Part shown: one piece after another, positions 7,995-53,105 of the stretch
Position numbering within the stretch: position 1 is the stretch's first letter
How the letters are laid out: each line of letters starts with the position of its first letter
Source: Lachnospiraceae bacterium
Lineage (GTDB): Bacteria > Bacillota > Clostridia > Lachnospirales > Lachnospiraceae
Assembly (NCBI GenBank): GCA_017535945.1
Contig: JAFXTJ010000025.1
Span: 1 to 53,105, forward strand
Length of the DNA stretch: 53,105 bases
Reading direction: 5' to 3'
Notes under the pieces: generated by a model
Told to the model about the DNA's origin: nothing
Databases searched by the model: none
What the model saw: the letters and a program-made list of their open reading frames with translations, nothing else
Program-made: the position numbers and the translations under genes

Positions 7995-8050
7995 ACCGAA
8001 CCTGTCAAAAATGACCCCCTGAAAATCGCATATTTTTGTGCAACTTGCCA

Positions 8051-8078
8051 GCCCCCGGTTTTTTGACCGGGGGCTTTT
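8051..8078 (+). terminator. Rho-independent terminator after fliS
   Basis: GCCCCCGGT (8051-8059), loop TTTTTG, ACCGGGGGC (8066-8074), then TTTT. A 9-bp GC-rich stem with a U-tract closes the flagellar segment. Confidence 0.92.
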
Positions 8079-8131
8079 GCTGTTTTTGAGACTCCGTTTT
8101 TGTGCAATCTGCCGAAAATGCGCAAAGGTAC

Positions 8132-8160
8132 TTGCAATCCGTTTCCGCCTTTGGTAGCAT
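8132..8160 (+). promoter_or_regulatory. Sigma-A-type promoter of the Tad pilus operon
   Basis: TTGCAA (8132-8137), 17 bases, TAGCAT (8155-8160), with an extended -10 TG at 8152-8153. The spacing is ideal and the box lies in the only sizeable gap before the pilus genes, downstream of the fliS terminator. It implies a 5' leader of about 135 bases. Confidence 0.55.
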
Positions 8161-8164
8161 CATC

Positions 8165-8301
8165 CCACCGGCGCCGGTTCCGGCGCGATTCTTCCCACAT
8201 TATGATCATACCGATCGGAGACGGATCCGATCTCACCCGGAGGTTTTCCTCCGGCGGGTCTCTTTCATTTCCTGTCTGTTGATCCCAAGGAAAAAGAGGA
8301 C
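8165..8301 (+). other. Hairpin-rich 5' leader of the Tad operon
   Basis: The 307-base gap after fliS holds the terminator and promoter listed above plus this leader. It contains three hairpins: GCGCCGG/CCGGCGC (8171-8186), GATCGGA/TCCGATC (8213-8232) and CCGGAGG-TTTT-CCTCCGG (8237-8254). The last is followed by a pyrimidine-rich stretch (GTCTCTTTCATTTCC) and looks attenuator-like, although the U-tract is weak. I could not match it to a known riboswitch. Confidence 0.4.
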
Positions 8302-8718
8302 ATGACCATCATCATTCTGAGTTCGCTTCTGCTGGGTGCCGCGGCATCCGATTTCCGGAAGCATAAGATCTATAATCTCTGGGTTCTGCCTCATCTGGCG
8401 GCGGGATTTCTTTTGGCGGTGCGGGACGGGGGAGCGGCCGGCGCGTGGAGTGCGCTTCTCTCCATGGGACTCTCTTTTGCGATGCTGTTCCCCGTGTATC
8501 TGGCCGGCGGGATCGGCGCGGGGGACGTGAAGCTGTTTGCGGCGGCGGCACCTTTTCTGGATCTCCGGGAGGTCGGGATCTGCGTCCTGCTCTCCTTTGT
8601 GATCGGCGGGGTGATGTCCGCGGGCATGCTGCTCGCGGGGAAGGGGAGGAAATACCGGATCCGGTTTGCGATCCCGATCCTCATGAGCGTGGCGTTTATT
8701 TTCGGAGGAAGGATATGA
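8302..8718 (+). CDS. Prepilin peptidase, A24 family (TadV/CpaA-like), first copy
   Basis: This 138-residue polytopic membrane aspartic protease processes class IV/Flp prepilins. The two catalytic Asp motifs are visible: ASDFRKHKIYN with Asp17 and GIGAGDVKL with Asp75. Its size matches the minimal TadV/CpaA form without the methylation domain. The ATG follows AAAAGAGGAC. Its stop overlaps the start of the next gene (ATGA), so translation is coupled with tadZ. A second A24 gene lies at 15903, so the operon has two peptidases. Confidence 0.92.
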   Translation: MTIIILSSLLLGAAASDFRKHKIYNLWVLPHLAAGFLLAVRDGGAAGAWSALLSMGLSFAMLFPVYLAGGIGAGDVKLFAAAAPFLDLREVGICVLLSFVIGGVMSAGMLLAGKGRKYRIRFAIPILMSVAFIFGGRI

Positions 8719-9734
8719 AGGAAGCCGATATCGTGATCATCGATGGCGACGCCGACTACTGCCGCAGACTGGACGGGGCGCTCCGGGCGAGGCTGTCCCT
8801 GCCGGTGCGGGTCCATGATTATACGCAGCCGGAGGCGCTTGCCTCCTATGAGAACAGACAGCAGACCGCCGCCGTCCTCATCGCGGAGCGGGAGATCTGC
8901 CGGACCGACTTAAGCGGGTTTCCGCGGGTGGTCGTCCTGTCGGAGGGGATGCAGGTGCCGCTCGAAGCGGAGACCGTGCGCCGGGTGAACAAATACGGCG
9001 GGGTTAACACGGTGATCCGTGTCATCAACGAACTGGTGTCGGAGATGCCGGATCTGTTTGAAGTCCTGCGGGATCCGGAGAAAGAGCGGGCGAAGCTCAT
9101 CGGCTTCTTTTCTCCTCTGGGGAGATGTCTGCAGACGACGGCCGCCCTTACCTGCGGACAGCTGCTGGCACAGCAGAGCAGGGTGCTGTTCCTGAGCCTG
9201 GAGCCGTTCTGCGGTCATCCGGTCACGGGAGAGAACGGGGGAGGGGATCTCTCGGAACTCCTGTATTATCACGAACTGGAGCCGGAGAAGCTTGCTTTTC
9301 ATGCGGCCCGGGCGAAGATCTCCGTCGGTCCGCTGGATGTGATCCCTCCGCCCGGCGTCTATACGGCGATCACGGAGACGGAGGGGGAGCGGTGGAGGGA
9401 GTTCTTTCTCCGGCTTGCCGCGGACGCGGGGTATGAGGTCATCCTGGCGGATCTGTCGGTGTGTGTCCGGGGATTGTTCGAGCTGATGCGCGAAATGGAT
9501 CTTCTCTACAGGATCTGCCGCGGGGATCCCGTGTCGGCCGCGAAAGAGAGGCAGTATGAACTGACGCTCAAGCGCACCGGGTTCGAGGATCTGAGCGTCT
9601 GCACGAAGCGGCTGGAACTGCCGGTGTTTTCGCGGCTCCCGGCGGATCCCGCACATTACGGGACGGGGGAACTGGCGGGGTACATGAGGCAGGAACTGAT
9701 GCAGGACGGGCTGCTTGGCGGAGGAGAAAGATGA
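8715..9734 (+). CDS. tadZ: TadZ/CpaE-like pilus assembly protein with degenerate P-loop
   Basis: This 339-residue protein has a receiver-like N-terminus (DIVIIDGDADYCRRL, residues 4-18) and a MinD/ParA-type C-terminal domain, the TadZ/CpaE arrangement used to position the Tad machine. The expected deviant Walker A (PLGGvGKTT) reads FSPLGRCLQTT near residue 135, so the glycines and the signature lysine are lost. A hydrophobic strand VLFLSLEPFCG follows. It is therefore probably an ATPase-dead polar-localisation factor. The start overlaps the upstream stop by 4 bases, and RBS GGAGGAAGG precedes it. TadZ family proteins often have atypical nucleotide sites. Confidence 0.8.
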   Translation: MKEADIVIIDGDADYCRRLDGALRARLSLPVRVHDYTQPEALASYENRQQTAAVLIAEREICRTDLSGFPRVVVLSEGMQVPLEAETVRRVNKYGGVNTVIRVINELVSEMPDLFEVLRDPEKERAKLIGFFSPLGRCLQTTAALTCGQLLAQQSRVLFLSLEPFCGHPVTGENGGGDLSELLYYHELEPEKLAFHAARAKISVGPLDVIPPPGVYTAITETEGERWREFFLRLAADAGYEVILADLSVCVRGLFELMREMDLLYRICRGDPVSAAKERQYELTLKRTGFEDLSVCTKRLELPVFSRLPADPAHYGTGELAGYMRQELMQDGLLGGGER

Positions 9735-24714: not shown

Positions 24715-24732
24715 CGACAGGAAAGGAGCGGT

Positions 24733-42382: not shown

Positions 42383-43375
42383 ATGCATTACAGGGTTGTT
42401 GTATTCGGAGTCAAGGATTCCTCCGAGGTCACCATCGATCATATCCGGGAGAATCTCTGTCCCGTGGATCTGCTGGTCACGGTGGATCCGGATGTGACGA
42501 AGAAAAATCATATCGCGGGCTACAAAGGGCTGACGGATCTGGAGGAGAAATACGGGATCCCGGTCTTTGCGGCGAAAAGCTATTATCTGCGGGATGATGA
42601 AACGGTCGCGTTCTTTGCGGAGAACACCTTTGACATCGGTGTCGTGGTGGGGTGGCAGCGGCTCATCCCGAAGCATGTGCTCGACGCGTTTAAGCACGGG
42701 ATCTTCGGTTTCCACGGCAACGCGGGATATCTGCCCTTCGGACGCGGGCGCTCGCCTTTAAACTGGTCGATGATCCTGGGAGATACGCGGTTTCATCTGA
42801 ACCTCTTTAAGTATGACGAGGCGGCCGATTCCCCCAATATCTTCGGCACGGAGCTCTTCTCCATCAATGTGCATGACGATATCCGCACCGCCCAGTATAA
42901 GAACATGATCTGCGCCAACCGCCTGATCGACCGTCTTCTCACGACATACTTAAGCGGAGAGGAGATCGTGATCCGCACGGAGTCCCGGGATTTCGATTCC
43001 TGGTATGACAAGCGCACGCCGGCGGACGGCCGGATCGACTGGCATGCCCGCACCAGACAGATCTATGATCTGATCCGCGGTGTGGCGGCACCTTTCCCCG
43101 GTGCCTTCTGCATGGCGGCATCCGGGGAGGAGCAGGAGGACCTCGCCGCGTATATGGCGGGCAGAGAGCCTGCGCCTGCGGGGGATGACGATCACCGCGT
43201 GACGATCTGGCAGGTCAGGCCTTTTGACGAGATCATCGATTTTTCCGCGGCGGCGCCCGGAGAGATCATCGAGATCTTTGACGGCCGTCCCATTGTGCGG
43301 ACGGTGGACGGGTCGATCCTGATCGACCGGTATGAAAGCGGCAGGGAACTGACAGCGGGGATGCTGCTTTACTGA
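42383..43375 (+). CDS. Formyltransferase-family protein (probable sugar N-formyltransferase)
   Basis: This 330-residue protein has a methionyl-tRNA-formyltransferase-like catalytic fold: ENTFDIGVVVGWQRLIPKHV, then GFHGNAGYLPFGRGRSPLNW at about residues 108-127, matching the HPSLLPxxRGxxP block. FKYDEAADSPNIFGTELF replaces the D-x-G segment, and YDLIRGVAAPFPGAF lies in the C-terminal part. The usual N-x-H order is altered to F-H-G-N, a divergence worth noting. It has no tRNA-binding C-terminal domain of standard length. Context points to N-formylation of an amino sugar using 10-formyl-THF. RBS AAGGAGCGGGT. Confidence 0.8.
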   Translation: MHYRVVVFGVKDSSEVTIDHIRENLCPVDLLVTVDPDVTKKNHIAGYKGLTDLEEKYGIPVFAAKSYYLRDDETVAFFAENTFDIGVVVGWQRLIPKHVLDAFKHGIFGFHGNAGYLPFGRGRSPLNWSMILGDTRFHLNLFKYDEAADSPNIFGTELFSINVHDDIRTAQYKNMICANRLIDRLLTTYLSGEEIVIRTESRDFDSWYDKRTPADGRIDWHARTRQIYDLIRGVAAPFPGAFCMAASGEEQEDLAAYMAGREPAPAGDDDHRVTIWQVRPFDEIIDFSAAAPGEIIEIFDGRPIVRTVDGSILIDRYESGRELTAGMLLY

Positions 43376-43385
43376 GCGCGGACGG

Positions 43386-44528
43386 ATGCAGGAGACGGCG
43401 GAGAAAAAACAGAGGTCCATCGCGTTTCATCTAAACTGCCTCGGGCAGGGCGGAGCGGAGCGCGTGGTATCCAATCTCGCCAACGAATTCGCCGGCCGCG
43501 GCTATCGCGTACTGGTCGCCACCGAGTGGCAGGAGGAGGAGGAATTCGCGCTGGATCCGCGTGTGGAACGCGTGCATGTGGGCCTGCGTCCGGGCGATGA
43601 AAAGAAGGGCCGTGTCACGCAGTTCTTCCTCCGCGTGCGGTATCTGCGGGAGTTTTTACGCGAACACCGCCCGGATGTGCTGGTGCCCTTTGCCCAGCGA
43701 GCCAATTACCGGGCGCTCATGGCGGCAAAGGGGACGGGGATCCCCGTGGTGGTGTGCGTGCGGACCGATCCCGTGGGGCATTACGATGCCCTGTCGGATA
43801 AGATCCAGATCCGCCTTCTTTTCCCGCGGGCGGCGGGAGCCGTGTTCCAGACGGGACTGCAGCGGGCGTTTTTCAGGCCGTATCTGCAGGAGAATTCGAC
43901 CATCATCCTGAATCCGGTGAATCCCAAGTATTTCGGCGTGGAGCGGCCGCCGGTGCGGGACAGGAGCGTGGTGCACCACGCGCGTCTCGTGGATTTCAAG
44001 AATCAGCCCATGCTGTGCCGGGCTTTTGTCCGGGTCCATGAGGAGCATCCGGATTATGTGCTCCGGATCTACGGGGCGGACAGTCATGACGGGACAAAGG
44101 AGATCCTGGACGGGATCATTGCGGAAAACCATGCGGAGGATTATATCCTCCTGATGGGCGGGAGCGATTCGCTGGAGCAGGAGCTGCCGAAGGGTGCGGT
44201 CTATGCCTTTACCTCCGACTGGGAGGGCCTGCCGAATTCCCTGCTGGAGGCGATGGCACTCGGAATGCCCATTGTTGCCACCGACTGTCCGTGCGGCGGA
44301 CCGGCGGAGGTCATCACGGACGGGGAGAACGGCCTGCTCATCCCCATCAAGGATGAAGATGCCCTGGTGAAAGGCTTGAACCGTCTGATCGGTGATGAGG
44401 AACTGGCGGAGCGGCTGGGGAAAAAGGCAAGAGAGATCGAAAAGCGCACCTCGGGGGAGGCGGTATTCGCCCTGTGGGATGCGTATCTGAATAGGATCAT
44501 CGAAAGCACTCATAAAAAGGAGGAATGA
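43386..44528 (+). CDS. GT4-family glycosyltransferase
   Basis: This 380-residue GT-B enzyme opens with FHLNCLGQGGAERVVSNLANEF. It has a second-domain entry VVHHARLVDFKNQPMLCRAF, LRIYGADSHDGTKE and a donor site FTSDWEGLPNSLLEAMALGMPIVATDC with GGPAEVI. The pattern is that of capsular/LPS GT4 enzymes. It starts 10 bases after the formyltransferase gene, and its stop overlaps the next gene by 4 bases. Confidence 0.93.
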   Translation: MQETAEKKQRSIAFHLNCLGQGGAERVVSNLANEFAGRGYRVLVATEWQEEEEFALDPRVERVHVGLRPGDEKKGRVTQFFLRVRYLREFLREHRPDVLVPFAQRANYRALMAAKGTGIPVVVCVRTDPVGHYDALSDKIQIRLLFPRAAGAVFQTGLQRAFFRPYLQENSTIILNPVNPKYFGVERPPVRDRSVVHHARLVDFKNQPMLCRAFVRVHEEHPDYVLRIYGADSHDGTKEILDGIIAENHAEDYILLMGGSDSLEQELPKGAVYAFTSDWEGLPNSLLEAMALGMPIVATDCPCGGPAEVITDGENGLLIPIKDEDALVKGLNRLIGDEELAERLGKKAREIEKRTSGEAVFALWDAYLNRIIESTHKKEE

Positions 44529-45283
44529 TGTTCTCATTTGAAGATTATCGAGAGATCCTGCGGCTGGTGAAGGAGTCCGGGCGCTATGCGACCTACGGGG
44601 AGGCACTTGAGCGGGAGGAATTCATCATCATGCGGCACGATGTGGAATACTCGGTGGACAGGGCCTACGCGCTCTCCCGCGTCGAGGATTCCATGGACTT
44701 CCGGTCCAATTATTTCTTCCAGTGGACCAACAATTCCTACAATATCCTCTCCCGCAAAAACCGGGATCTGCTGACGGATATGCATGAAAGAGGCCATATG
44801 ATCGGCCTGCATTTTGCCTTGAACGGCATGACGGATATGGAACTCATCAGGCGCCGGATCCGGCAGGAAATGGACATGTTAAGCGACATGCTGGGCTTTG
44901 CCGTGAACACCTTTTCCATTCACCGGCCGTCTCCCGCGGTGCTGGCGGAGAATATCAAGCTGCCCGGGATCCTCAATGCCTACCAGGATGAGTTCTTCTC
45001 CTTTGATCCCAAGGCGGGTCCGGATTCCGCACTGAGGGTCAAATATCTGTCGGATGCCAATCATATCTGGCGCTACGGGTATCCGGACGCGGAGACGATC
45101 GCGGCGCATCCGCGGATCCAGATCCTGGCGCACCCCTTCGCCTGGACGAAGAAGGGGTATGAGAATGAGGAGAATTACCGGACGCTGATCCGGGAGAAAT
45201 ATGCGGAGATGATCGATTCCATCGACGGGGAGTGTAAGGATTTCTCACCGTACAGGGAAGGCTTTATGGGGATGCTCACATGA
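44525..45283 (+). CDS. Polysaccharide deacetylase-fold protein
   Basis: This 252-residue protein has no signal peptide. IIMRHDVEYSVDRA (about residues 35-48) carries the Asp typical of the CE4 metal site, HMIGLHFAL the His-x-x-x-x-His-like pair, SIHRPSP a second conserved block and ILAHPFAW the C-terminal His. It probably acts on a cytoplasmic glycan or nucleotide-sugar intermediate. It starts with ATGATG overlapping the GT4 stop and ends overlapping pseI by 4 bases, so it is translated with the pseudaminic acid gene. A deacetylase role is inferred; the substrate is unknown. Confidence 0.76.
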   Translation: MMFSFEDYREILRLVKESGRYATYGEALEREEFIIMRHDVEYSVDRAYALSRVEDSMDFRSNYFFQWTNNSYNILSRKNRDLLTDMHERGHMIGLHFALNGMTDMELIRRRIRQEMDMLSDMLGFAVNTFSIHRPSPAVLAENIKLPGILNAYQDEFFSFDPKAGPDSALRVKYLSDANHIWRYGYPDAETIAAHPRIQILAHPFAWTKKGYENEENYRTLIREKYAEMIDSIDGECKDFSPYREGFMGMLT

Positions 45284-46329
45284 ACAGGATCGCGATCGGA
45301 GACCGGTTTGTCGGGGAGCGGGAGCCCGTGATGATCGTCGCGGAGCTCTCCGGCAATCACAACGGGGATTATGAACGTGCGGTGGCGCTGGTGCACGCGG
45401 CGGCGGAGGCCGGTGCCGATGCGGTGAAGCTTCAGACCTATACGGCGGATACCATCACGATCGACTGCGACAAGCCGTATTTTCAGTTAAACCGCGGCAC
45501 GCTGTGGGACGGCACCACGCTCTACAAGCTGTATCAGGAGGCTTATACGCCATGGGAATGGCACGAGGGTCTGGCTGCGGAGGCGAAGAAGTGCGGGATG
45601 CTCTGCTTCTCATCGCCTTTTGATCCGACGGCGGTGGATCTGATGGAGCGTCTGGAGATGCCGGCTTTCAAGATCGCGTCCTTTGAGATCACGGATGTGC
45701 CGCTCATCCGATATGCGGCATCCAAAGGGAAGCCGGTGATCCTGGCAACGGGCATCGCGCACGCGGAGGATATCCGGGCCGCTGTCGATGCCATCCGGCA
45801 GCAGGGCAATGAGAATATCATTCTCCTGAAATGTGTGTCCGCCTATCCCACGCCCTATGAGGATGTGAACCTCAGGATGATGCCCGGACTGGGAGAGACC
45901 TACGGTGTGCAGTACGGCCTGTCCGATCACACACCCGGGAGCACCGTGGCGGTCGCGGCCGCGGCGATGGGGGCGAGGATGATCGAGAAGCATCTGACGC
46001 TGAAGCGTGCGGACGGCGGTCCGGATGCCGCATTTTCCATGGAACCGGAGGAATTCGCGGATATGGTGCGGCAGGTGCGGATCGTGGAGAAAGCGCTGGG
46101 ATCCGCCGGATACGCACTCACGGAGAAGCAGGAGACGGAGCGGGCACTTGCCAGATCGCTCTTTGTCGTGCAAAATATCAGAAAGGGCGAGGTGTTTACG
46201 GACCGGCATGTCCGGTCGATCCGTCCGGGTTACGGGTTATCTCCGGCACGGCTGGATGAAGTGCTTGGAAAGAAAGCCACCCGGGATATCGAGCGGGGAG
46301 AACCCTTGCGGGAAGGAGATTTTGAATGA
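45280..46329 (+). CDS. pseI: Pseudaminic acid synthase
   Basis: This 349-residue NeuB-family enzyme condenses a 2,4-diacetamido-trideoxy-altrose with PEP to make pseudaminic acid. VMIVAELSGNHNGDYERAV and DAVKLQTYTADTITID are NeuB-family blocks. TLWDGTTLYKLYQEAYTPWEWHE is PseI-like rather than sialic/legionaminic synthase-like (seen as two parts TLWDGTTLYKL and YQEAYTPWEWHE). IEKHLTLKR and a C-terminal SAF antifreeze-like domain (SLFVVQNIRKGEVFTDRHV) complete it. It overlaps the preceding gene and the acpP-like gene by 4 bases each. PseB, PseC, PseH and PseF are not in the window. Confidence 0.9.
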   Translation: MNRIAIGDRFVGEREPVMIVAELSGNHNGDYERAVALVHAAAEAGADAVKLQTYTADTITIDCDKPYFQLNRGTLWDGTTLYKLYQEAYTPWEWHEGLAAEAKKCGMLCFSSPFDPTAVDLMERLEMPAFKIASFEITDVPLIRYAASKGKPVILATGIAHAEDIRAAVDAIRQQGNENIILLKCVSAYPTPYEDVNLRMMPGLGETYGVQYGLSDHTPGSTVAVAAAAMGARMIEKHLTLKRADGGPDAAFSMEPEEFADMVRQVRIVEKALGSAGYALTEKQETERALARSLFVVQNIRKGEVFTDRHVRSIRPGYGLSPARLDEVLGKKATRDIERGEPLREGDFE

Positions 46330-46571
46330 CCAGAGAGGAGATTTACGAGCAGCTGCAGCCGGTATTCCGGGATGTGTTCGATGACGAGTCCATCACGGTA
46401 AATGATGCGACGACAGCAGCGGATATCGAGGACTGGGATTCCCTGGAGCATATCAATCTGGTGAATGCCATCGAGAAGACCTTTCACATGAAATTCACCA
46501 TGGCGCAGGTCCTTGAGATGAAGAATGTGGGCGATATGGTGGATATCCTGACAGAGAGTGCGCAGCCGTGA
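46326..46571 (+). CDS. Dedicated acyl carrier protein
   Basis: This 81-residue ACP has a four-helix pattern and the phosphopantetheine serine Ser39 in DWDSLEHINL. The motif is D-S-L-E-H rather than the D-S-L-D/E-x-V of fatty acid AcpP, as in carrier proteins of accessory pathways. It is embedded between pseI and a MaoC gene with 4-base overlaps on both sides, so it is expressed with the glycan genes and not with fatty acid synthesis. It would need a holo-ACP synthase from elsewhere and probably carries a small acyl or glyceryl unit. Confidence 0.92.
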   Translation: MTREEIYEQLQPVFRDVFDDESITVNDATTAADIEDWDSLEHINLVNAIEKTFHMKFTMAQVLEMKNVGDMVDILTESAQP

Positions 46572-46990
46572 ACGATTACCGTTTCGAGGATATCTCACAG
46601 GGACAGACGGAGCGTTTTACCCGCAGGATCACCGGAGAGATGATGGAGGATTTCCGCGCGCTGACGGGGGACGAGAATCCGCTCCACACGGATGCGGAAG
46701 CCGCAAGGGAAAGAGGGTTTAAAGACCGCGTCTCCTACGGGATGCTCACGGCCTCCATGATCTCCACACTGGCCGGCATGTTCCTGCCGGGACGCAACTG
46801 TCTGCTGATGGAGGTGAACTCCAAGTTTGCCAGACCCGTCTATGCGGGGGATGAACTGACGGTCACCGGCAGCGTGACGAAGATCGATCCGATCTTCCGC
46901 ACCATCGATGTGAAGACCGCGATCACCAATGACCGCGGGGAAAAGGTGTACCGCGGATCTTATCGCGCGGGCTTTTTTGAGGAGCCGTAG
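46568..46990 (+). CDS. MaoC-like (R)-specific hydratase/dehydratase
   Basis: This 140-residue single hot-dog-domain protein of the MaoC/PhaJ type reversibly hydrates enoyl thioesters to (R)-3-hydroxyacyl thioesters. The hydratase-2 motif is visible as RALTGDENPLHTDAEAARERGF with Asp and His in the expected positions (DENPLH), followed by SYGMLTASMIS. The GTG start overlaps the ACP stop by 4 bases, so acyl-ACP is the likely substrate. It is followed by a ketoreductase-like SDR. Confidence 0.92.
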   Translation: MNDYRFEDISQGQTERFTRRITGEMMEDFRALTGDENPLHTDAEAARERGFKDRVSYGMLTASMISTLAGMFLPGRNCLLMEVNSKFARPVYAGDELTVTGSVTKIDPIFRTIDVKTAITNDRGEKVYRGSYRAGFFEEP

Positions 46991-46993
46991 AGA

Positions 46994-47740
46994 ATGAGCG
47001 GAACGCTGTTTGTGCCGGGGGCTTCATCGGACATCGGACGCGCACTGATCGGACTGATCGGTGCGCGCTATGATAAATGCATCGCGCACTGTTTCCGCGG
47101 GGCGGAGCGTCTGCAGGAGACAGCCTCCGCGGCGGGACTTTCCGTTACCGGGCTGCGGGATGCGGGAGGGATGACGATCCTGTCCGCAGATCTGACGAGC
47201 GCGGAGGAGACGGAAAATCTCCTTACGGAGCTTACGCAGGCCGGGATCGTACCGGATGACATCGTTTATCTGCCCTCCGCGCCTTTTTCCTACTGCCAGT
47301 TCAAAAAACTCGAACCTGTGTCGTTTGAGGATGCGCTCTCCCTGACGCTGATGCCTGCCGTCCGGATCCTGCATGCCCTTCTGCCTGCCATGGCAAAGCG
47401 CGGCAGCGGTCATGTCGTGACCATGCTCTCGGCGGTCACGGACGGGATGCCACCGAAATTCCTCTCTGCGTACACCACGGCCAAGTATGCGCTTCTGGGC
47501 CTGATGAGATCCCTTGCCGCGGAATACGGCGAAAAGGGGATCCTGATCAACGGGATCTCGCCGGTGATGACGGATACCCGGTTCCTCGCGCAGGTGCCGG
47601 AGAAGATCCGCGAGATCGCGGCAGCAGACCGCCCGGACGGCAGGCTCCTGTCTCCGGAGGAAGCAGCGCAGGCGATCGCTGTCCTGCTGGAGGCATCCGG
47701 AGCGGATGCTCCCTGCGGCACCAACCGGGTGATCGCATAG
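46994..47740 (+). CDS. SDR-family oxidoreductase (FabG-like)
   Basis: This 248-residue classical SDR has a nucleotide site FVPGASSDIGRALI (GxxxDIG in place of GxxxGIG, so one glycine is replaced). Active-site residues are Ser in MLSAVTDGM, Tyr160 and Lys164 in YTTAKYALLGL, and the C-terminal segment resembles 3-oxoacyl-ACP reductases. Proximity to ACP and MaoC suggests it reduces a 3-oxoacyl-ACP, giving (R)-3-hydroxyacyl-ACP. A sugar substrate is also possible. It starts 3 bases after the MaoC stop. Confidence 0.88.
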   Translation: MSGTLFVPGASSDIGRALIGLIGARYDKCIAHCFRGAERLQETASAAGLSVTGLRDAGGMTILSADLTSAEETENLLTELTQAGIVPDDIVYLPSAPFSYCQFKKLEPVSFEDALSLTLMPAVRILHALLPAMAKRGSGHVVTMLSAVTDGMPPKFLSAYTTAKYALLGLMRSLAAEYGEKGILINGISPVMTDTRFLAQVPEKIREIAAADRPDGRLLSPEEAAQAIAVLLEASGADAPCGTNRVIA

Positions 47741-47758
47741 GGGCATAAGGGGATACGC

Positions 47759-49297
47759 ATGGAACTGACCTCCTTTCGATTTCTGAATTTCTTCGCCCTG
47801 CTCCTGTTCGTGTACTACGCACTTCCCCGGCGGATCCGCGGCTGGCTTCTGCTTCCTGCGGGGGCCGTCTTTTATCTGGCGGGGACATGGGAGAGGCCGT
47901 GGATCATCGTGTTTCCGCTTCTTGCCGTCATGGCAAGCTTTCTTTTTGCCCGGTTCCTTCCGTCCGCGGATCTGACGGGGAAACGGGAGAAACTCCTGCG
48001 CCGCGTATTTCTGTTTTCGGAACTTCTCCTGTTGCTGGGGATGCTGGGATATTTCAAATATCGCGGCCTTTTCGGGTTTTCCGCGGCCGGCGGATCGCCG
48101 GAGATCCTGCCTGCGGGGATCTCCTTCTACACGTTTATCCTGCTGGGTTATTTCCTGGATGTATATCTCGGGATGCGGCCCGCCGAGACCAACCCGGTCC
48201 GGCTGCTCGCCGGCGGGCTGTATTTTCCGCTCCTGGTATCCGGTCCCATCGTCCGTTACGCGGACATGAAGCAGGAACTGTTCACACCGCATCCGCTGTC
48301 TTACGGGAATCTGACTGCCGGTCTGCAGCGCATGCTGTGGGGCTTTTTCAAGAAGCTGGTGATCTCCGCGAGACTTGCACATGTCGCCGATGCGGTCTTT
48401 GATCCGGCGTCGACCCTCGGCGGGGCGAATGTCCTGATCGGGGCGGTCTGCTTCACGCTGCAGCTTTATACGGACTTTTCGGGCTGCATGGATATCGTGC
48501 TCGGGCTTTCCGAAACACTCGGCATGACGCTGCCGGAAAACTTCCGGACGCCGTTTTTTTCGGAGACGGTTGAGGAATTCTGGCGCAGATGGCACATCAC
48601 GCTGGGGCTGTGGCTGAGGGACCGGCTCTTTTACCCGCTTCTCAGGAGCCGCCTGTTTCTGTGGCTGTCGGAGCGTTTTCGCGCGCTCTTCGGTAAGAAA
48701 AGAGGGAAGCAGGTCTACACCTGGCTCGCGATGCTCGTCCTCTGGGCGGCGATCGGCCTGTGGCACGGCGGGGCCTGGAAGTATGTCATCGGCACCGGTC
48801 TGCTGCAATGGTGCTATATCGTTGCGGGTGAGTGTCTGTCCCCGCTGTCGAAGCGGCTGACCGGATGGAGCACGCGCCGGGGACTCGGCGGCGTGCTGCG
48901 GTTTCTCAGACGGCTCCGGACCTTCCTCCTCCTCTCGGCCAGTTTTGTGTTCTTCCGGGCGGCCTCCGCGGGCCAGGCGGCGGAGCTCTTCGCTGCCCTG
49001 CTGCATCCGGCGGGCGCCCGCATGAATACGGGGATCGGACCGCTCACGGAGGTTCTTTCTCCGGTTGAAGCGGCGGTCGCCCTGACCGGGCTTCTGCTGT
49101 TACTGGCGGCCGGGATCCTGCAATACCGTGCGGAACAGGAGGGAAAGGAGCCTTCCCGTGCGGTGCGGGAGCGGATCGCCGGATGGCGTCTTCCCGTCAG
49201 ATGGGCTGTATGGATGCTTCTGCTGTTTGGCGTGATCCTGCTGGGGGAATACGGATCCGGGACCAGCGCGCAGGAGTTCATTTACAGGGGATTTTAG
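47759..49297 (+). CDS. MBOAT-family O-acyltransferase (AlgI/DltB-like)
   Basis: This 512-residue polytopic membrane enzyme transfers acyl groups to extracellular glycans or lipids. Visible MBOAT features are FYTFILLGYFLDVYLG, GPIVRYADMKQEL, MLWGFFKKLVIS, FWRRWHITLGLWLRDRLFYP (His279) and the catalytic IGLWHGGAWKYV (His336). The N-terminus starts SFRFLNFFALLLFVYYAL. Followed after 1 base by an SGNH-type protein, the usual partner arrangement (DltB-DltD, AlgI-AlgJ/X). The acyl donor is probably the local ACP or its product. Confidence 0.95.
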   Translation: MELTSFRFLNFFALLLFVYYALPRRIRGWLLLPAGAVFYLAGTWERPWIIVFPLLAVMASFLFARFLPSADLTGKREKLLRRVFLFSELLLLLGMLGYFKYRGLFGFSAAGGSPEILPAGISFYTFILLGYFLDVYLGMRPAETNPVRLLAGGLYFPLLVSGPIVRYADMKQELFTPHPLSYGNLTAGLQRMLWGFFKKLVISARLAHVADAVFDPASTLGGANVLIGAVCFTLQLYTDFSGCMDIVLGLSETLGMTLPENFRTPFFSETVEEFWRRWHITLGLWLRDRLFYPLLRSRLFLWLSERFRALFGKKRGKQVYTWLAMLVLWAAIGLWHGGAWKYVIGTGLLQWCYIVAGECLSPLSKRLTGWSTRRGLGGVLRFLRRLRTFLLLSASFVFFRAASAGQAAELFAALLHPAGARMNTGIGPLTEVLSPVEAAVALTGLLLLLAAGILQYRAEQEGKEPSRAVRERIAGWRLPVRWAVWMLLLFGVILLGEYGSGTSAQEFIYRGF

Positions 49298-49298
49298 G

Positions 49299-50381
49299 AT
49301 GAAGCGCACGGAGATCACAAAGTGCATCGCGTTCCTGCTCCTGTTTCTGGTGCTGCTCACCGGGATCAGTTACGCGGTCCGGATGAACGGTGACGTCAAG
49401 GACCGTTTCGTGGGATTCTACGCGGAGAAGAGGAACACGCTGGATGCGGTCCTCATCGGCTCTTCACCGGTGTATCCGGCTTTTGCGACGCCGGAGATCT
49501 ACGGGGAACAGGGGATCGCGGTCTATCCGCTTTCCTCCAACATGCAGCGGCCGAAAGCCGCCGTCTGGCTCACCAGAGAGGCGCTGAAATACCAGGATCC
49601 GGCGCTCATGATCTATGAAGTGCGCATGTTCACGATGCGGGATGAGGAACTGCTCGGCAACATGGCGCATACCAGGGAGGTGACGGATAATCTGCGCTAC
49701 TCCGTAAACCGCCTTCAGGCGATCCGGGCACTGGTGGAGGATCCGGACGAACGGCTCACGTATGATCTGGATATTTTTAAATATCATTCCAACTGGAAGA
49801 CACTGGCGCTGCCCTCGCAGCTGAAGACCTGTTTCTATGCCTGGCCGGAAGGATTGAAAGGTCATGAGCCGCTCACCGATGTGGGACCGGCAGAAGGCAC
49901 ATTGCCGTCCGCGGGTACGGATATCGTCCCGATCCCGGAGGAGGAGGAACAGGCGCTGACCGAGCTTTGCGCTTATCTCCGGGAGAGGGAACTGAAGGCA
50001 CTGTTTGTTGTCGTGCCGCATACGACGAAGATGCCGGAGACGGATGCGCAGTACCGTTATCTCTCGCAGCTCGTGACCGCGCAGGGTTTTGCTTTTCTCA
50101 ACATGAACGATCTTGCGGAGACAGAGATGGGCATCGATCCGGACTGTGATTTCCGGGATTACGGGAATCATCTGAATGCCGTCGGCGCCGGGAAGCTTTC
50201 CGGATGGTTCGGCAGATATCTCAAAGAGCAGTATGGCCTGCCCGATCACCGGGGGGATACCCGCTATGCTTCCTGGGATGCGGCATATGCGAAATGGCAG
50301 GAGGAATACGGCAGGGCGGAACAGCTCATCGGACGGCATGTGGCGGAGGGCAGTTATTATGTGGTCCCCGAGGAGGAATGA
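49299..50381 (+). CDS. SGNH-fold membrane-anchored partner of the MBOAT (DltD/AlgX-like role)
   Basis: This 360-residue protein has an N-terminal membrane helix (about 8-25, CIAFLLLFLVLLTGISYAV) and an extracytoplasmic SGNH-like domain. LDAVLIGSSPVYPAF (Ser55/Ser56, nucleophile candidate) and DYGNHLNAVG (Asp287 and His291, D-x-x-x-H) form the likely catalytic set. ALFVVVPHTTKM is a core strand. The block order is that of DltD/AlgJ-type O-acyl transfer partners. It starts 1 base after the MBOAT stop. It probably completes transfer of the acyl group to the glycan outside the membrane. Confidence 0.84.
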   Translation: MKRTEITKCIAFLLLFLVLLTGISYAVRMNGDVKDRFVGFYAEKRNTLDAVLIGSSPVYPAFATPEIYGEQGIAVYPLSSNMQRPKAAVWLTREALKYQDPALMIYEVRMFTMRDEELLGNMAHTREVTDNLRYSVNRLQAIRALVEDPDERLTYDLDIFKYHSNWKTLALPSQLKTCFYAWPEGLKGHEPLTDVGPAEGTLPSAGTDIVPIPEEEEQALTELCAYLRERELKALFVVVPHTTKMPETDAQYRYLSQLVTAQGFAFLNMNDLAETEMGIDPDCDFRDYGNHLNAVGAGKLSGWFGRYLKEQYGLPDHRGDTRYASWDAAYAKWQEEYGRAEQLIGRHVAEGSYYVVPEEE

Positions 50382-50384
50382 GAG

Positions 50385-51350
50385 ATGATCGTCGGGATCC
50401 GCTGTGACGGGAATGATAAGGTGGCCTCCGGGCATGTGACACGCACGCTCACCATTGCGGAGGCGCTGCGCCGGCAGGGAGCGGAGGTGCGGTTTTTCGC
50501 TGCCGATGACAGCACCCTCCGGATGCTGCGGTTGCGCATGGATCCGGCATCGGACTATCCGGTCACGGTGCTTGGCACGGACTACCGCGATCTGTGCGGG
50601 GAACTGCCTGTTCTGACGCGGGAGCTGACCGCATGCGGAGCGGAGGTTCTCCTCATTGACAGCTATTTCGCCGACGCGGCTTATGCGGCCGGATTGAAAA
50701 AATCCTGTCCTTCCCTTAAGATGGCATGGATGGATGATACGGGGGACGCGCCTGCGGGGATCGGACTCATCGTGAATTATGTCGCGCCGGAGACCGCCCG
50801 GATCGGGACGGCGGACGGAGGTACGATCCTGAAGGGGCCGGCTTACACACCCCTGCGGGAGCAGTTTGCGGATGCGCGCATGCCGGTCCGGGAGACGGTC
50901 CGGACGGTCTTTGTTTCCACCGGCGGAAGCGATCTCTATGGATTTGCGGCAGCGCTTTCCGTCCGTGTGGAAGAGGTCCTGCCGGGGGTTGCCTGCAGAA
51001 TTCCGCAGGGCATCCGGGAGATGGCAGCCTATATGGCGGAATGCGATCTCGCCGTGAGTGCGGGAGGCACGACGGTGTATGAGCTGTGCGCCGTCGGCGT
51101 GCCGACGGTATTCTATACCATGGCGGACAACCAGCTGGCATTGGCGGCCGGCATTGGCGCGAGTGCGGAAAACGCGGGGGATATCCGGGATCCGCAGGAC
51201 CGCGCAGCGGCTCTCGACCGGATCGGCGAATGGCTCCTGCGCATGGCCGGCTCCGCGGAAGCGCGCAGGACGGCTTCGCTCCGGGAGCGGCAGCTGACGG
51301 ACGGGGCCGGTGCGGACCGCATCGCGCTGGAGATCCTCCGGCTGCATTGA
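50385..51350 (+). CDS. pseG: UDP-2,4-diacetamido-2,4,6-trideoxy-beta-L-altropyranose hydrolase
   Basis: This 321-residue GT-B-like hydrolase releases UDP from the PseH product, the step before PseI. The N-terminal IRCDGNDKVASGHVTRTLTIA (two parts: IRCDGNDKVASGH and VTRTLTIAEAL) contains His17, equivalent to the catalytic His of known PseG. VFVSTGGSDLYGF and the UDP-binding AVSAGGTTVYELCAVGVPTV follow. It starts 3 bases after the SGNH gene and is separated from pseI by five acyl-tailoring genes, so the two sets are physically interleaved. Confidence 0.9.
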   Translation: MIVGIRCDGNDKVASGHVTRTLTIAEALRRQGAEVRFFAADDSTLRMLRLRMDPASDYPVTVLGTDYRDLCGELPVLTRELTACGAEVLLIDSYFADAAYAAGLKKSCPSLKMAWMDDTGDAPAGIGLIVNYVAPETARIGTADGGTILKGPAYTPLREQFADARMPVRETVRTVFVSTGGSDLYGFAAALSVRVEEVLPGVACRIPQGIREMAAYMAECDLAVSAGGTTVYELCAVGVPTVFYTMADNQLALAAGIGASAENAGDIRDPQDRAAALDRIGEWLLRMAGSAEARRTASLRERQLTDGAGADRIALEILRLH

Positions 51351-51383
51351 TCCGCGGAGCCACTGCAAAAAAGGAAGAAACAT

Positions 51384-53105
51384 ATGAAAGAACTGGAATA
51401 TCCCTTTGACGGGGATCTGATCCTGCAAAAGGCGAAACGTCTGAAGAGAGAACTGCTCGCGCAGGATACGCCGCGTCTCAAAAAGAAGATCGCCATGCTG
51501 GGCGGGTCCACGACACACGATATCCTGCGGGTGCTGGAACTGTTTCTGCTGCAGGAGGGGATCGAGCCGGAATTCTACGAATCGGAATACGCCGCTTACT
51601 GGCAGGACGGGATGTTCCCGGGGGAGGAGTTGTCCTCCTTTGCTCCGGACCTCATCCTCGTCCATACCACGCGGGTCAACCTCCCCCGTACACCGCGCGT
51701 AACGGACACGCCGGAGGCCGCTGAGGAAGCGTACGCGGAGAGCCTGTCGCATTTCACTTCCCTGTGGGATTCCCTCGAAGCTCATTTCCATTGTCCCGTG
51801 ATCCAGAATAATTTCGAATATCCGCCGGTGCGTCTGCTGGGCAACCGGGACGCGGTGGATCCGCGCGGTCTCACGGCTTTTGTGAGCCGGATGAACGCGG
51901 CTTTTGCTGCGGAGGCCGCAAAACGCGAGAGTCTGTATCTGTGCGATATCAACTATCTCTCTGCCAGGATCGGTCTGGATGTCTGGGACGATCCCGTTTA
52001 CTGGCATATGTACAAATACGCGCTGTCCATGCAGGCGATCCCGCAGCTGGCCTATCAATATGCCTGCCTGATCAGGGCGATCTACGGAAAAAACAAAAAG
52101 GCGCTGGTGCTGGATCTGGACAACACGCTCTGGGGCGGTATCGTGGGCGATGACGGACCGGATGGTCTCGAGATCGGGCAGGAGACCAGCCTGGGCCAGC
52201 TGTACCATGCGTTTCAGGGGTATGTGCGCGCGCACAGGGATCTGGGCGTGATGCTGGCGGTGGATTCCAAGAACGATCCGGAGAATGCGCTCGCGGGACT
52301 GAACCATCCGGACGGAGTCCTGCGGCCGGAGGATTTTGTCTGCATCCGCGCCAACTGGGAGCCCAAGAGCCGTAATTTCGGAGAGATCGCCGCACAGCTG
52401 GGGATCCTGCCGGAATCGATGGTCTTTGTGGATGACAATCCGGCGGAGCGTCTGATCGTGGCGCAGGAGTATCCGGGTGCGGCCGTGCCGGAGCTCGGGG
52501 AACCCGCAACCTATATCCGCACGCTCGATCATGCGGCGTATTTTGAGAACATCACGCTCTCCGAGGACGATCTGCGCCGCGGGGAGATGATGCGGGAGAA
52601 TGTGCTGCGCAGGGAGGCACAGGAGAGCTTCACGGATTACGGGGAGTATCTGCGCTCTCTTCAGATGACGGCGAGGATCGCACCTTTTGAGGATCTGTAT
52701 TATCCGCGGATCGCACAGCTGACCAACAAGAGCAATCAGTTCAATGTGACCACGAAGCGCTACACGGTGGAGGAGATCCGGCAGGCGGCGGAGGATCCGG
52801 AGAGGATCACCCTGTACGGCAGGCTCGAAGACCGCTTCGGAGACAACGGGATCGTCGCCCTGACCGTCGGGCGGATCGTGACGGCGGACGACGGGGTGCG
52901 GGAGCTTGCGATCGAGCTCTTCCTCATGAGCTGCCGGGTGCTCAAGCGCGACATGGATTTCGCCATGCGGGATGCGCTGATCGATGCCGCTCTTTCCCGC
53001 GGTGTCGGGCGGATCACCGGCACCTATCTCCCCACGGCCAAAAACCGCATGGTGGCGGAGCTTTATGAGCAGTTCGGCTTTACCCGACTCTCCGCCGAGA
53101 CAGAC
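51384..53105 (+). CDS. HAD-IIIC / FkbH-like protein with C-terminal acetyltransferase-like domain, partial
   Basis: The gene is open to the window end (574 codons seen); GGAAGAAAC precedes the ATG. An N-terminal SGNH-like region (MLGGSTTHDILR, about 37-48) is followed by a HAD domain with VLDLDNTLWGGIVGDDG (Asp244, Asp246), AVDSKND and FVDDNPAER. A GNAT-like tail (QLTNKSNQFNVTTKRY, FLMSCRVLKRDMD) completes the FkbH architecture. FkbH proteins load a glyceryl unit from 1,3-bisphosphoglycerate onto an ACP. The local ACP at 46326 is its likely partner. It may continue with further tailoring genes downstream. Confidence 0.9.
   Translation, partial: MKELEYPFDGDLILQKAKRLKRELLAQDTPRLKKKIAMLGGSTTHDILRVLELFLLQEGIEPEFYESEYAAYWQDGMFPGEELSSFAPDLILVHTTRVNLPRTPRVTDTPEAAEEAYAESLSHFTSLWDSLEAHFHCPVIQNNFEYPPVRLLGNRDAVDPRGLTAFVSRMNAAFAAEAAKRESLYLCDINYLSARIGLDVWDDPVYWHMYKYALSMQAIPQLAYQYACLIRAIYGKNKKALVLDLDNTLWGGIVGDDGPDGLEIGQETSLGQLYHAFQGYVRAHRDLGVMLAVDSKNDPENALAGLNHPDGVLRPEDFVCIRANWEPKSRNFGEIAAQLGILPESMVFVDDNPAERLIVAQEYPGAAVPELGEPATYIRTLDHAAYFENITLSEDDLRRGEMMRENVLRREAQESFTDYGEYLRSLQMTARIAPFEDLYYPRIAQLTNKSNQFNVTTKRYTVEEIRQAAEDPERITLYGRLEDRFGDNGIVALTVGRIVTADDGVRELAIELFLMSCRVLKRDMDFAMRDALIDAALSRGVGRITGTYLPTAKNRMVAELYEQFGFTRLSAETD

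Follow-up and report, generated by a model that had tools for sequence, protein, structure and literature searches.

Gene run at the end of the contig

The stretch of DNA analysed in this study (the window) is the whole of contig C67, 53,105 nucleotides long, from the assembly of a Lachnospiraceae bacterium (GCA_017535945.1, contig JAFXTJ010000025.1; 2.65 Mb in 144 contigs, 81.9% complete), and the system in question is a set of genes built around an acyl carrier protein (ACP) and an FkbH protein that stands at its end together with two genes of pseudaminic acid synthesis. Eight genes, pseI, ACP, MaoC, SDR, MBOAT, SGNH-like, pseG-like and FkbH, follow one another head to tail on the + strand up to the contig end (45280-53105; Table 1). 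The gaps between them in that order are -4, -4, 3, 18, 1, 3 and 33 bp, which is an operon-like spacing. Upstream and in the same direction are glycosyltransferases, a formyltransferase-like gene, a TviB-like dehydrogenase, an epimerase, a Wzm/Wzt-like exporter and rml genes, and these neighbours mark the locus as a surface-polysaccharide cluster. Long open reading frames (ORFs) on the minus strand opposite these genes (up to 1213 aa) were taken as mechanical ORFs and not as genes.

An earlier sequence-only reading of this DNA had described the set as a carrier-protein tailoring module wrapped around pseI and pseG. The genes it named are present in one + strand run, with gene calls by Pfam and NCBIfam. 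However, pseI lies at the upstream edge, just outside the interval given to the module (46326..53105), and the set is not wrapped around it.

Table 1. Genes of the run at the contig end and one upstream context gene, with the matches or residues behind each name
Feature	Coordinates	Strand	Basis
pseI, pseudaminic acid synthase (NeuB family + SAF)	45280..46329	+	TIGR03586 493.1 bits, cut-off 340.25
Dedicated acyl carrier protein	46326..46571	+	PF00550 25.3 bits, cut-off 20.8; serine of WDSLEH present
MaoC-type (hot-dog) hydratase/dehydratase, proposed glyceryl-ACP dehydratase	46568..46990	+	PF01575 66.9 bits, cut-off 27; GDENPLH motif present
SDR, proposed pyruvyl-ACP reductase	46994..47740	+	PF13561/PF00106; YxxxK present
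MBOAT membrane O-acyltransferase, DltB-like	47759..49297	+	PF03062 47.8 bits, cut-off 27
SGNH-like partner of MBOAT, weak assignment	49299..50381	+	conserved residues and weak profile matches
pseG-like nucleotide-sugar hydrolase	50385..51350	+	TIGR03590 120.4 bits, below 153.55 cut-off
FkbH, HAD-IIIC glyceryl-ACP synthase-like	51384..53105	+	TIGR01686 254.6 bits, cut-off 146.65; PF21211
Formyltransferase-like gene, context, outside the acyl set	42383..43375	+	PF00551/PF02911; 66% identical copy in pse-less G420 cluster

The window FkbH has no stop codon, its reading frame being cut by the contig end. Its catalytic HAD aspartates D244 and D246 and C517 in the C-terminal half are invariant in 23 sequences, the window's included; a solved relative is 3slr (BF1531). 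The ACP, about 4.8 kb upstream of FkbH in the same gene run, is up to 71% identical to FkbH-adjacent ACPs elsewhere, and the six ordinary NCBIfam ACP models that match it all score below cut-off. D35, N37 and H40 of MaoC, within the GDxNPxH motif, are invariant in an alignment of seven sequences, and the nearest solved relatives of the protein, by sequence, are (R)-specific enoyl-CoA hydratases. Y160 and K164 of the SDR are invariant in six sequences, and the closest NCBIfam models, YmfI and FabG, score far under their cut-offs. The MBOAT has invariant H279 and H336 (13 sequences), and both of its PDB sequence matches are DltB.

The protein that the earlier reading had called the SGNH partner of the MBOAT keeps that name on its residues: G54, S56 and H291 are invariant and D287 nearly so in a 10-sequence alignment of its family. 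However, the window gene has no Pfam or NCBIfam match of its own. Two of the 10 family sequences match Lipase_GDSL_2 (best E 0.0027), and a PDB profile search with the family returned AlgX weakly (E 0.59) and CgnD with E 0.0013 across 50 columns only; NCBIfam models gave no lead on the family.

The MaoC clade and FkbH

The window MaoC belongs to a distinct clade that depends on FkbH. The search pattern was an alignment (A1) of seven MaoC sequences taken from FkbH neighbourhoods. Its matches in 200 genomes of the family fall into a high-scoring set of 12 genomes (161-224 bits) and a low-scoring one of 15 (81-112 bits), and FkbH is present in all 12 of the high-scoring genomes compared to 4 of the 15 low-scoring ones and 42 of the 200 overall (the same draw of genomes, compared by their handles). 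When the seven seed genomes are excluded, FkbH is found in 5/5 MaoC-clade genomes compared to 35/193 (chance about 1.5e-4). FkbH and MaoC are on separate contigs in four of those five (G193, G052, G079 and G163); in G163 both are close to the end of a contig, so that they may still be neighbours. Since the contigs are separate in G193, G052 and G079, the link between MaoC and FkbH is in at least three genomes not one of neighbourhood. Across 391 genomes of the class, A1 reached at least 176 bits in three, all with FkbH, two of which are kin (the window's genome and its genus-mate G420). Scores of 81-123 bits were found in 32, of which five have FkbH, and G294, G357 and G458 have the two genes less than 1 kb apart.

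A scan of named genomes with A1 found 69 loci, 41 of them titled Gemmiger, Faecalibacterium or Fournierella and the remainder from Lachnospiraceae, Selenomonadaceae, Erysipelotrichaceae, Desulfovibrio, Myxococcaceae, Reyranellaceae and a Pacearchaeota bin; six are seeds (L114, L119, L141, L146, L150, L152). Counts with hidden Markov models cover the 68 loci with a MaoC ORF, while L148, the 69th, has FkbH beside MaoC by BLAST. An ACP lies within 1.5 kb of MaoC in 64 of the 68, an SDR within 2.5 kb in 57, and FkbH within 9 kb on the same strand in 41. When the genomes of the other 27 loci were searched, all 27 were found to encode FkbH (12/12 and 15/15), with a best match of at least 460 bits each; the gene is outside the locus in 26 and in the locus on the opposite strand in L125, and the copy of G607 is in pieces. 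All 69 MaoC-clade loci thus come from genomes that encode FkbH, within the locus in 43 cases and at another place in 26, and this is true of 63/63 without the seeds. L148 also holds a 389-residue open frame (8001-9170) that would join MaoC to SDR. The frame is present in the record, but MaoC and SDR join at a run of G, and a different frame gives what looks like the usual end of MaoC. Frameshift, assembly error or a phase-variable tract is equally likely, and this fusion was rejected as proof of consecutive action.

These data support functional coupling of ACP, FkbH, MaoC and SDR, and the dedicated ACP route proposed by the sequence-only reading is upheld to that extent. FkbH enzymes form glyceryl-ACP, and further enzymes then act on it, according to two papers (PMC7489565, PMC4979870). 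Because the MaoC-clade loci are all in FkbH genomes whereas FkbH is found in 52 of the 391 class genomes, MaoC most likely acts on glyceryl-ACP, the product of FkbH.

The model proposed here, to which a probability of about 0.5 is given, is that the six genes other than pseI and pseG make up a carrier-protein cassette for acylation within a surface-glycan cluster, in which FkbH, MaoC and SDR in succession give lactyl-ACP and the MBOAT and SGNH-like proteins transfer the acyl group. FkbH would first move the glyceryl group of 1,3-bisphosphoglycerate onto the dedicated ACP, a step that is established for the family. MaoC would then dehydrate glyceryl-ACP across C2-C3: the beta-hydroxyl is on C3, and its loss with the C2 hydrogen would give 2-hydroxyacrylyl-ACP, the enol of pyruvyl-ACP, to which it would tautomerise. 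The FabG-like SDR would reduce pyruvyl-ACP to lactyl-ACP, and the MBOAT with the SGNH-like protein would carry the acyl group across the membrane to a glycan hydroxyl in the manner of DltB/DltD. pseI and pseG would make a sugar of the same glycan, outside the acyl route. Lactyl would be the simplest product that uses FkbH, MaoC and SDR in succession.

A hydroxybutyryl product, which the sequence-only reading had also offered, would come about differently, with MaoC and SDR converting fatty-acid intermediates to an (R)-3-hydroxybutyryl-ACP that would N-acylate pseudaminic acid, and FkbH serving something else. Hydroxybutyryl groups do occur on pseudaminic acid, and the nearest relatives of MaoC, the (R)-specific enoyl-CoA hydratases, and of the SDR, the YmfI/FabG models, are consistent with such a product. 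However, two findings lower its likelihood: MaoC depends on FkbH, as seen in all 69 loci, and no ketosynthase was found among the 23 window proteins scanned, all from beyond position 24732. A synthase III was noticed once (L144) among the locus gene lists inspected, and the set is present in genomes without PseI over cut-off and in a cluster without pse genes (G420, below). This explanation is considered distinctly unlikely.

Core, partners and relation to pseudaminic acid

The search of the family genomes with the window FkbH gave 46 match rows other than the window's own, and 38 loci were fetched, including a second copy on C125 of the window's genome; the rows not among the 38 are G016, G087, G157, G054, G000:C18, two of G097 and the second piece of G107, which lies inside a fetched locus. 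Gene lists for the loci come from our own ORF picking, and names given as by eye lack a profile match behind them. FkbH and ACP are a stable core, with an ACP within 700 bp of FkbH in 32/38 loci. Within 6 kb and on the same strand as FkbH, an MBOAT is found in 20 of the loci, MaoC in 6, SDR in 5, an SGNH-like gene in 5, pseI in 6 and pseG in 3. These counts support the MBOAT of the earlier reading as a frequent neighbour of FkbH, with an SGNH-like match in only 5 of the 38. FkbH in its turn can do without this MaoC: three same-genus genomes (G225, G542, G576) have FkbH and no A1 match.

The second set in the window's genome (L032:5854-10974) consists of FkbH, ACP, MBOAT and SGNH, and the 19.9 kb fetched showed no match to either MaoC or SDR; genes upstream of it resemble rnf electron-transport genes by eye. 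FkbH is present as two separate ORFs in a Selenomonadaceae genome (L137:6891-8004), and an FkbH 57% identical to the window's is found in an unverified record from human faeces labelled bacteriophage (L204, MT835480, 12001-13707), which may be a mislabelled bacterial piece.

What stands beside the full FkbH-ACP-MaoC-SDR block varies. It is followed by an MBOAT in L178, by a GNAT in L046 and L175 (Pfam) and by a PglD-like hexapeptide transferase in L044 (Pfam), and it forms one run with an MBOAT and an SGNH-like gene in L062 and L154. A protein of about 330 residues follows it in the Gemmiger, Fournierella and Faecalibacterium loci inspected (the L117 copy has no Pfam match), and in L053 the order is FkbH-ACP-MaoC-GNAT, without an SDR match. 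The acyltransferase is exchanged around a donor block that stays the same, which is what a donor cassette would predict. MaoC and SDR are also swapped in and out of one FkbH core, as would be expected of an optional step: the MaoC label is scattered over a tree of 54 FkbH proteins, where it needs 17 changes, no fewer than when shuffled (mean 17.3), and well-supported branches require at least 9 of these. The tree excluded proteins under 500 aa; G193, G163, G052 and G079 were labelled as lacking MaoC though they have it elsewhere in the genome, and L181 was labelled as having MaoC for a copy elsewhere in the genome.

Sets with an MBOAT and without MaoC are common (20 and 6 of the 38 loci have MBOAT and MaoC, respectively), and this favours an explanation in which the group transferred is glyceryl as such, or glyceryl that has been oxidised or epimerised, while MaoC and SDR carry out some other reaction, such as C3 oxidation or a C2-inverting dehydration-rehydration. 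It is also favoured by a VOC gene beside FkbH-ACP in L059 and, by similarity, in L069, and by the methoxymalonyl-ACP routes, in which glyceryl-ACP is oxidised twice by dehydrogenases (PMC7489565). However, oxidation needs no MaoC, and the conserved hydratase residues of MaoC favour dehydration or hydration. The methoxymalonyl-route dehydrogenases are also said to come from families other than SDR and MaoC. Transfer of glyceryl is regarded as rather unlikely for the window, and lactyl remains the preferred product.

Several loci carry additional genes. VOC (glyoxalase fold) genes lie near FkbH-ACP in L059:8400-8813 (Pfam), L144:8431-8847 (BLAST), L205:11347-11775 (annotation) and, by similarity, L069, and possibly encode an epimerase of the alpha-hydroxyl of glyceryl-ACP. 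A two-subunit transketolase pair (N/C) stands beside MaoC with an MBOAT near in L154:5998-7739 (Pfam), as it does by eye in L135, L138, L140 and L176, and may build a larger acid on the carrier. In L144:3364-10434, FkbH-ACP-MaoC adjoins an acyl transferase domain, a synthase III, an SDR and a second, ACP-like gene, and this gene set suggests a chain-extended acyl group. Together, the transketolase-like, VOC and synthase III variants suggest a core on which acids of other kinds are made as well. In two genomes, MaoC is followed by a gene for a SIR2-like deacylase (L172:10176-10898 by Pfam, L174:8962-9717 by eye).

The transketolase pairs and the L144 genes also lend something to the idea that the ACP product of the window is a longer or branched acid, with MaoC/SDR products extended by fatty-acid enzymes or a transketolase. 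However, no such genes are among the scanned window proteins from 42383 to 53105, most of the 68 loci are of the ACP-MaoC-SDR kind (SDR in 57, ACP in 64) and the transketolase pair was noticed in five only. For the window a longer acid is given a slim chance, compared to the lactyl group preferred here.

The sequence-only reading had assigned the route to a glycan containing pseudaminic acid. The same-genus genome G420 shares the window's cluster (tviB 75%, epimerase 84%, formyltransferase-like gene 66%, GT4c 71%, HP252 80%), followed by an asparagine-synthase-like gene (by eye), ACP (60%), MaoC (45%), an SDR whose best match is that of L062 (34%) and a glycosyltransferase, and then by FkbH (60%), a second asparagine-synthase-like gene, MBOAT (43%) and SGNH (52%). 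No pseI or pseG match was found in the 38.5 kb of this cluster. The PseI of G420 is on C2, within a pseF-pseI-pseG operon common to the other four same-genus genomes. Among these, G379 has the pse operon and gave no FkbH match at E 1e-20. Among the genomes of the 69 MaoC-clade loci, PseI is over cut-off in 0 of the 10 tested; seven of these have NeuB-like matches at 230-311 bits, and it is possible that they make a related nonulosonic acid. Two of 12 genomes checked (G163 and G274) have the MaoC clade and no PseI match. The six-gene set as a pathway specific to pseudaminic acid was rejected on the pse-less G420 cluster and the 0/10 result: the acyl route is separable from pseI and pseG, and its acceptor need not be pseudaminic acid.

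The core nevertheless occurs in pse operons as well. In L065, L067 and L068 the FkbH-ACP pair is flanked by a pseF-like gene (by eye) and by a GNAT and then pseI (the L065 GNAT by Pfam), and in L069 it is near a GNAT-like gene, pseI and pseG. FkbH-ACP is therefore employed both inside and outside pseudaminic operons. In L195 (G094), pseF/pseI, pseG and FkbH-ACP-MaoC-SDR are found within about 13 kb, so the window's combination is not unique. The sugar formyltransferase-like gene is conserved in the pse-less G420 cluster, and so it probably has a role in the core glycan and not in pseudaminic acid only. Within the window's own assembly pseI is the sole NeuB match, and searches for PseC and PseH gave best scores of 227.8 bits (cut-off 423.5) and 73.9 bits (cut-off 93.1), with a match of each family on C114, in an assembly that is 81.9% complete.

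Weight of the proposal and comparison with known systems

Several points weigh against the proposal. The 69 loci are not independent, given the 41 from Gemmiger, Faecalibacterium and Fournierella, and the scan pattern was derived from MaoC sequences chosen beside FkbH; the 26 loci with FkbH elsewhere in the genome were not selected for FkbH. No SDR match lies within 2.5 kb in 11 of the 68 loci. Two of these are at contig ends (L097, L145), in three an aldo/keto-reductase-like gene takes the place of the SDR (L135, L138, L140; by Pfam in L140 alone), and in six neither an SDR nor a reductase-like gene was found (L129, L132, L142, L146, L151, L155). Two of the 57 SDR matches are weak (L090 is cut, L144 generic). 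An SGNH-like match is near FkbH in just 5/38 family loci, and the five loci with transketolase-like genes beside MaoC contain something that the scheme does not need. The lactyl assignment would follow from reaction types only. Its precedent is the bryostatin loading module, in which FkbH, DH and KR, the same three reaction types, reportedly give a lactyl starter; this did not turn up among the papers listed in searches of the open-licence literature, and it is a polyketide loading module, unlike the glycan-cluster setting of the window.

Many other gut bacteria have the acid-making half of the set, which is not bound to pseudaminic acid. Ester and amide decorations alter the charge of surface glycans and their recognition by phages and the immune system, and we know of no donors for many of the non-acetyl groups. 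If the model is correct, a small carrier-protein line draws on an intermediate of glycolysis, its product can be predicted from whichever tailoring genes accompany FkbH-ACP (glyceryl with none, lactyl with MaoC and SDR, perhaps an epimer with VOC), and many glycan clusters of gut bacteria become readable. The window's genome would offer a test pair, the C125 set without a MaoC or SDR match and the C67 set with both. In a broader version, a free-standing route from glycolysis to an activated lactyl group would supply any adjacent acyltransferase with a donor of general use, for lactylating surface glycans or other cell targets, including in many Gemmiger, Faecalibacterium and Fournierella; this is more tentative and is put at slightly less than even odds.

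The tetronate and methoxymalonyl-ACP pathways are like the window in that an FkbH member and a stand-alone ACP are followed by enzymes acting on the ACP-bound three-carbon unit (PMC7489565, PMC4979870). However, in those systems the unit enters a polyketide, whereas the window family is found in glycan clusters with MaoC and SDR and an acyltransferase. An FkbH-like domain within a DH-MT-FkbH-ACP module is described in PMC4552970. Flagellin islands of Enterobacteriaceae hold ACPs and FabG-like genes with LuxE/LuxC, and FkbH is not mentioned in the passages of PMC4875605 consulted.

The view of the earlier reading that no pathway with exactly these genes is known goes too far. Campylobacter jejuni 11168 carries dimethylglyceric acid on pseudaminic acid (PMC3068675, PMC7099621), and, according to PMC7099621, the flagellar glycosylation locus of C. 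jejuni holds a gene with an fkbH domain, cj1302, which is a pseudogene in strain 12664, where dimethylglyceryl-pseudaminic acid was undetected. The same paper reports that strain 12661 also has no dimethylglyceryl forms, though loss of cj1302 is called unique to 12664, and that 12661 is without cj1301, annotated as an epimerase. The tie suggested here between cj1302 and dimethylglyceric acid is drawn in this study and not by PMC7099621. As in the window, an fkbH-domain gene is in a glycosylation locus with pseudaminic acid; unlike the window, MBOAT, MaoC and SDR go unmentioned in sections 26 and 28 of that paper. The open-licence literature yielded no paper linking FkbH with polysaccharide and MBOAT, none linking FkbH with acyl carrier protein and pseudaminic acid, and none linking FkbH with glyceryl and capsular polysaccharide.

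Alphaproteobacterial plasmids also hold such sets. One is pSymB of Sinorhizobium meliloti (CP140955; L202 10375-15410), where an MBOAT similar to the window's (E 2e-33), an ACP and a HAD-IIIC/FkbH-like gene are close together near capsule export genes. The gene between its MBOAT and ACP is annotated as a TonB-dependent receptor, an annotation that looks doubtful, and it aligns poorly with the SGNH-like family (probability 0.6%). Rhodobacteraceae SC52 (CP049034) likewise has an MBOAT, an ACP and a HAD-IIIC/FkbH-like gene together on a plasmid, and there the gene after the MBOAT does align with the SGNH-like family (hhalign 92.4%). Unlike the window, neither set has an annotated MaoC or SDR alongside, and SC52 has a VOC gene.

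The Dlt system shares with the window a carrier protein, a DltB-like MBOAT and a membrane-anchored partner, but FkbH stands where the adenylating DltA would be. No adenylating enzyme was found among the 23 window proteins scanned, in an operon that may run past the contig end. The window MBOAT scores 125.3 bits against TIGR04091, for which the cut-off is 375, and no DltD model of Pfam or NCBIfam matches the window SGNH-like gene or its 10 aligned sequences. By these tests the window operon is not a Dlt system, though transfer of its acyl group would follow the Dlt logic.

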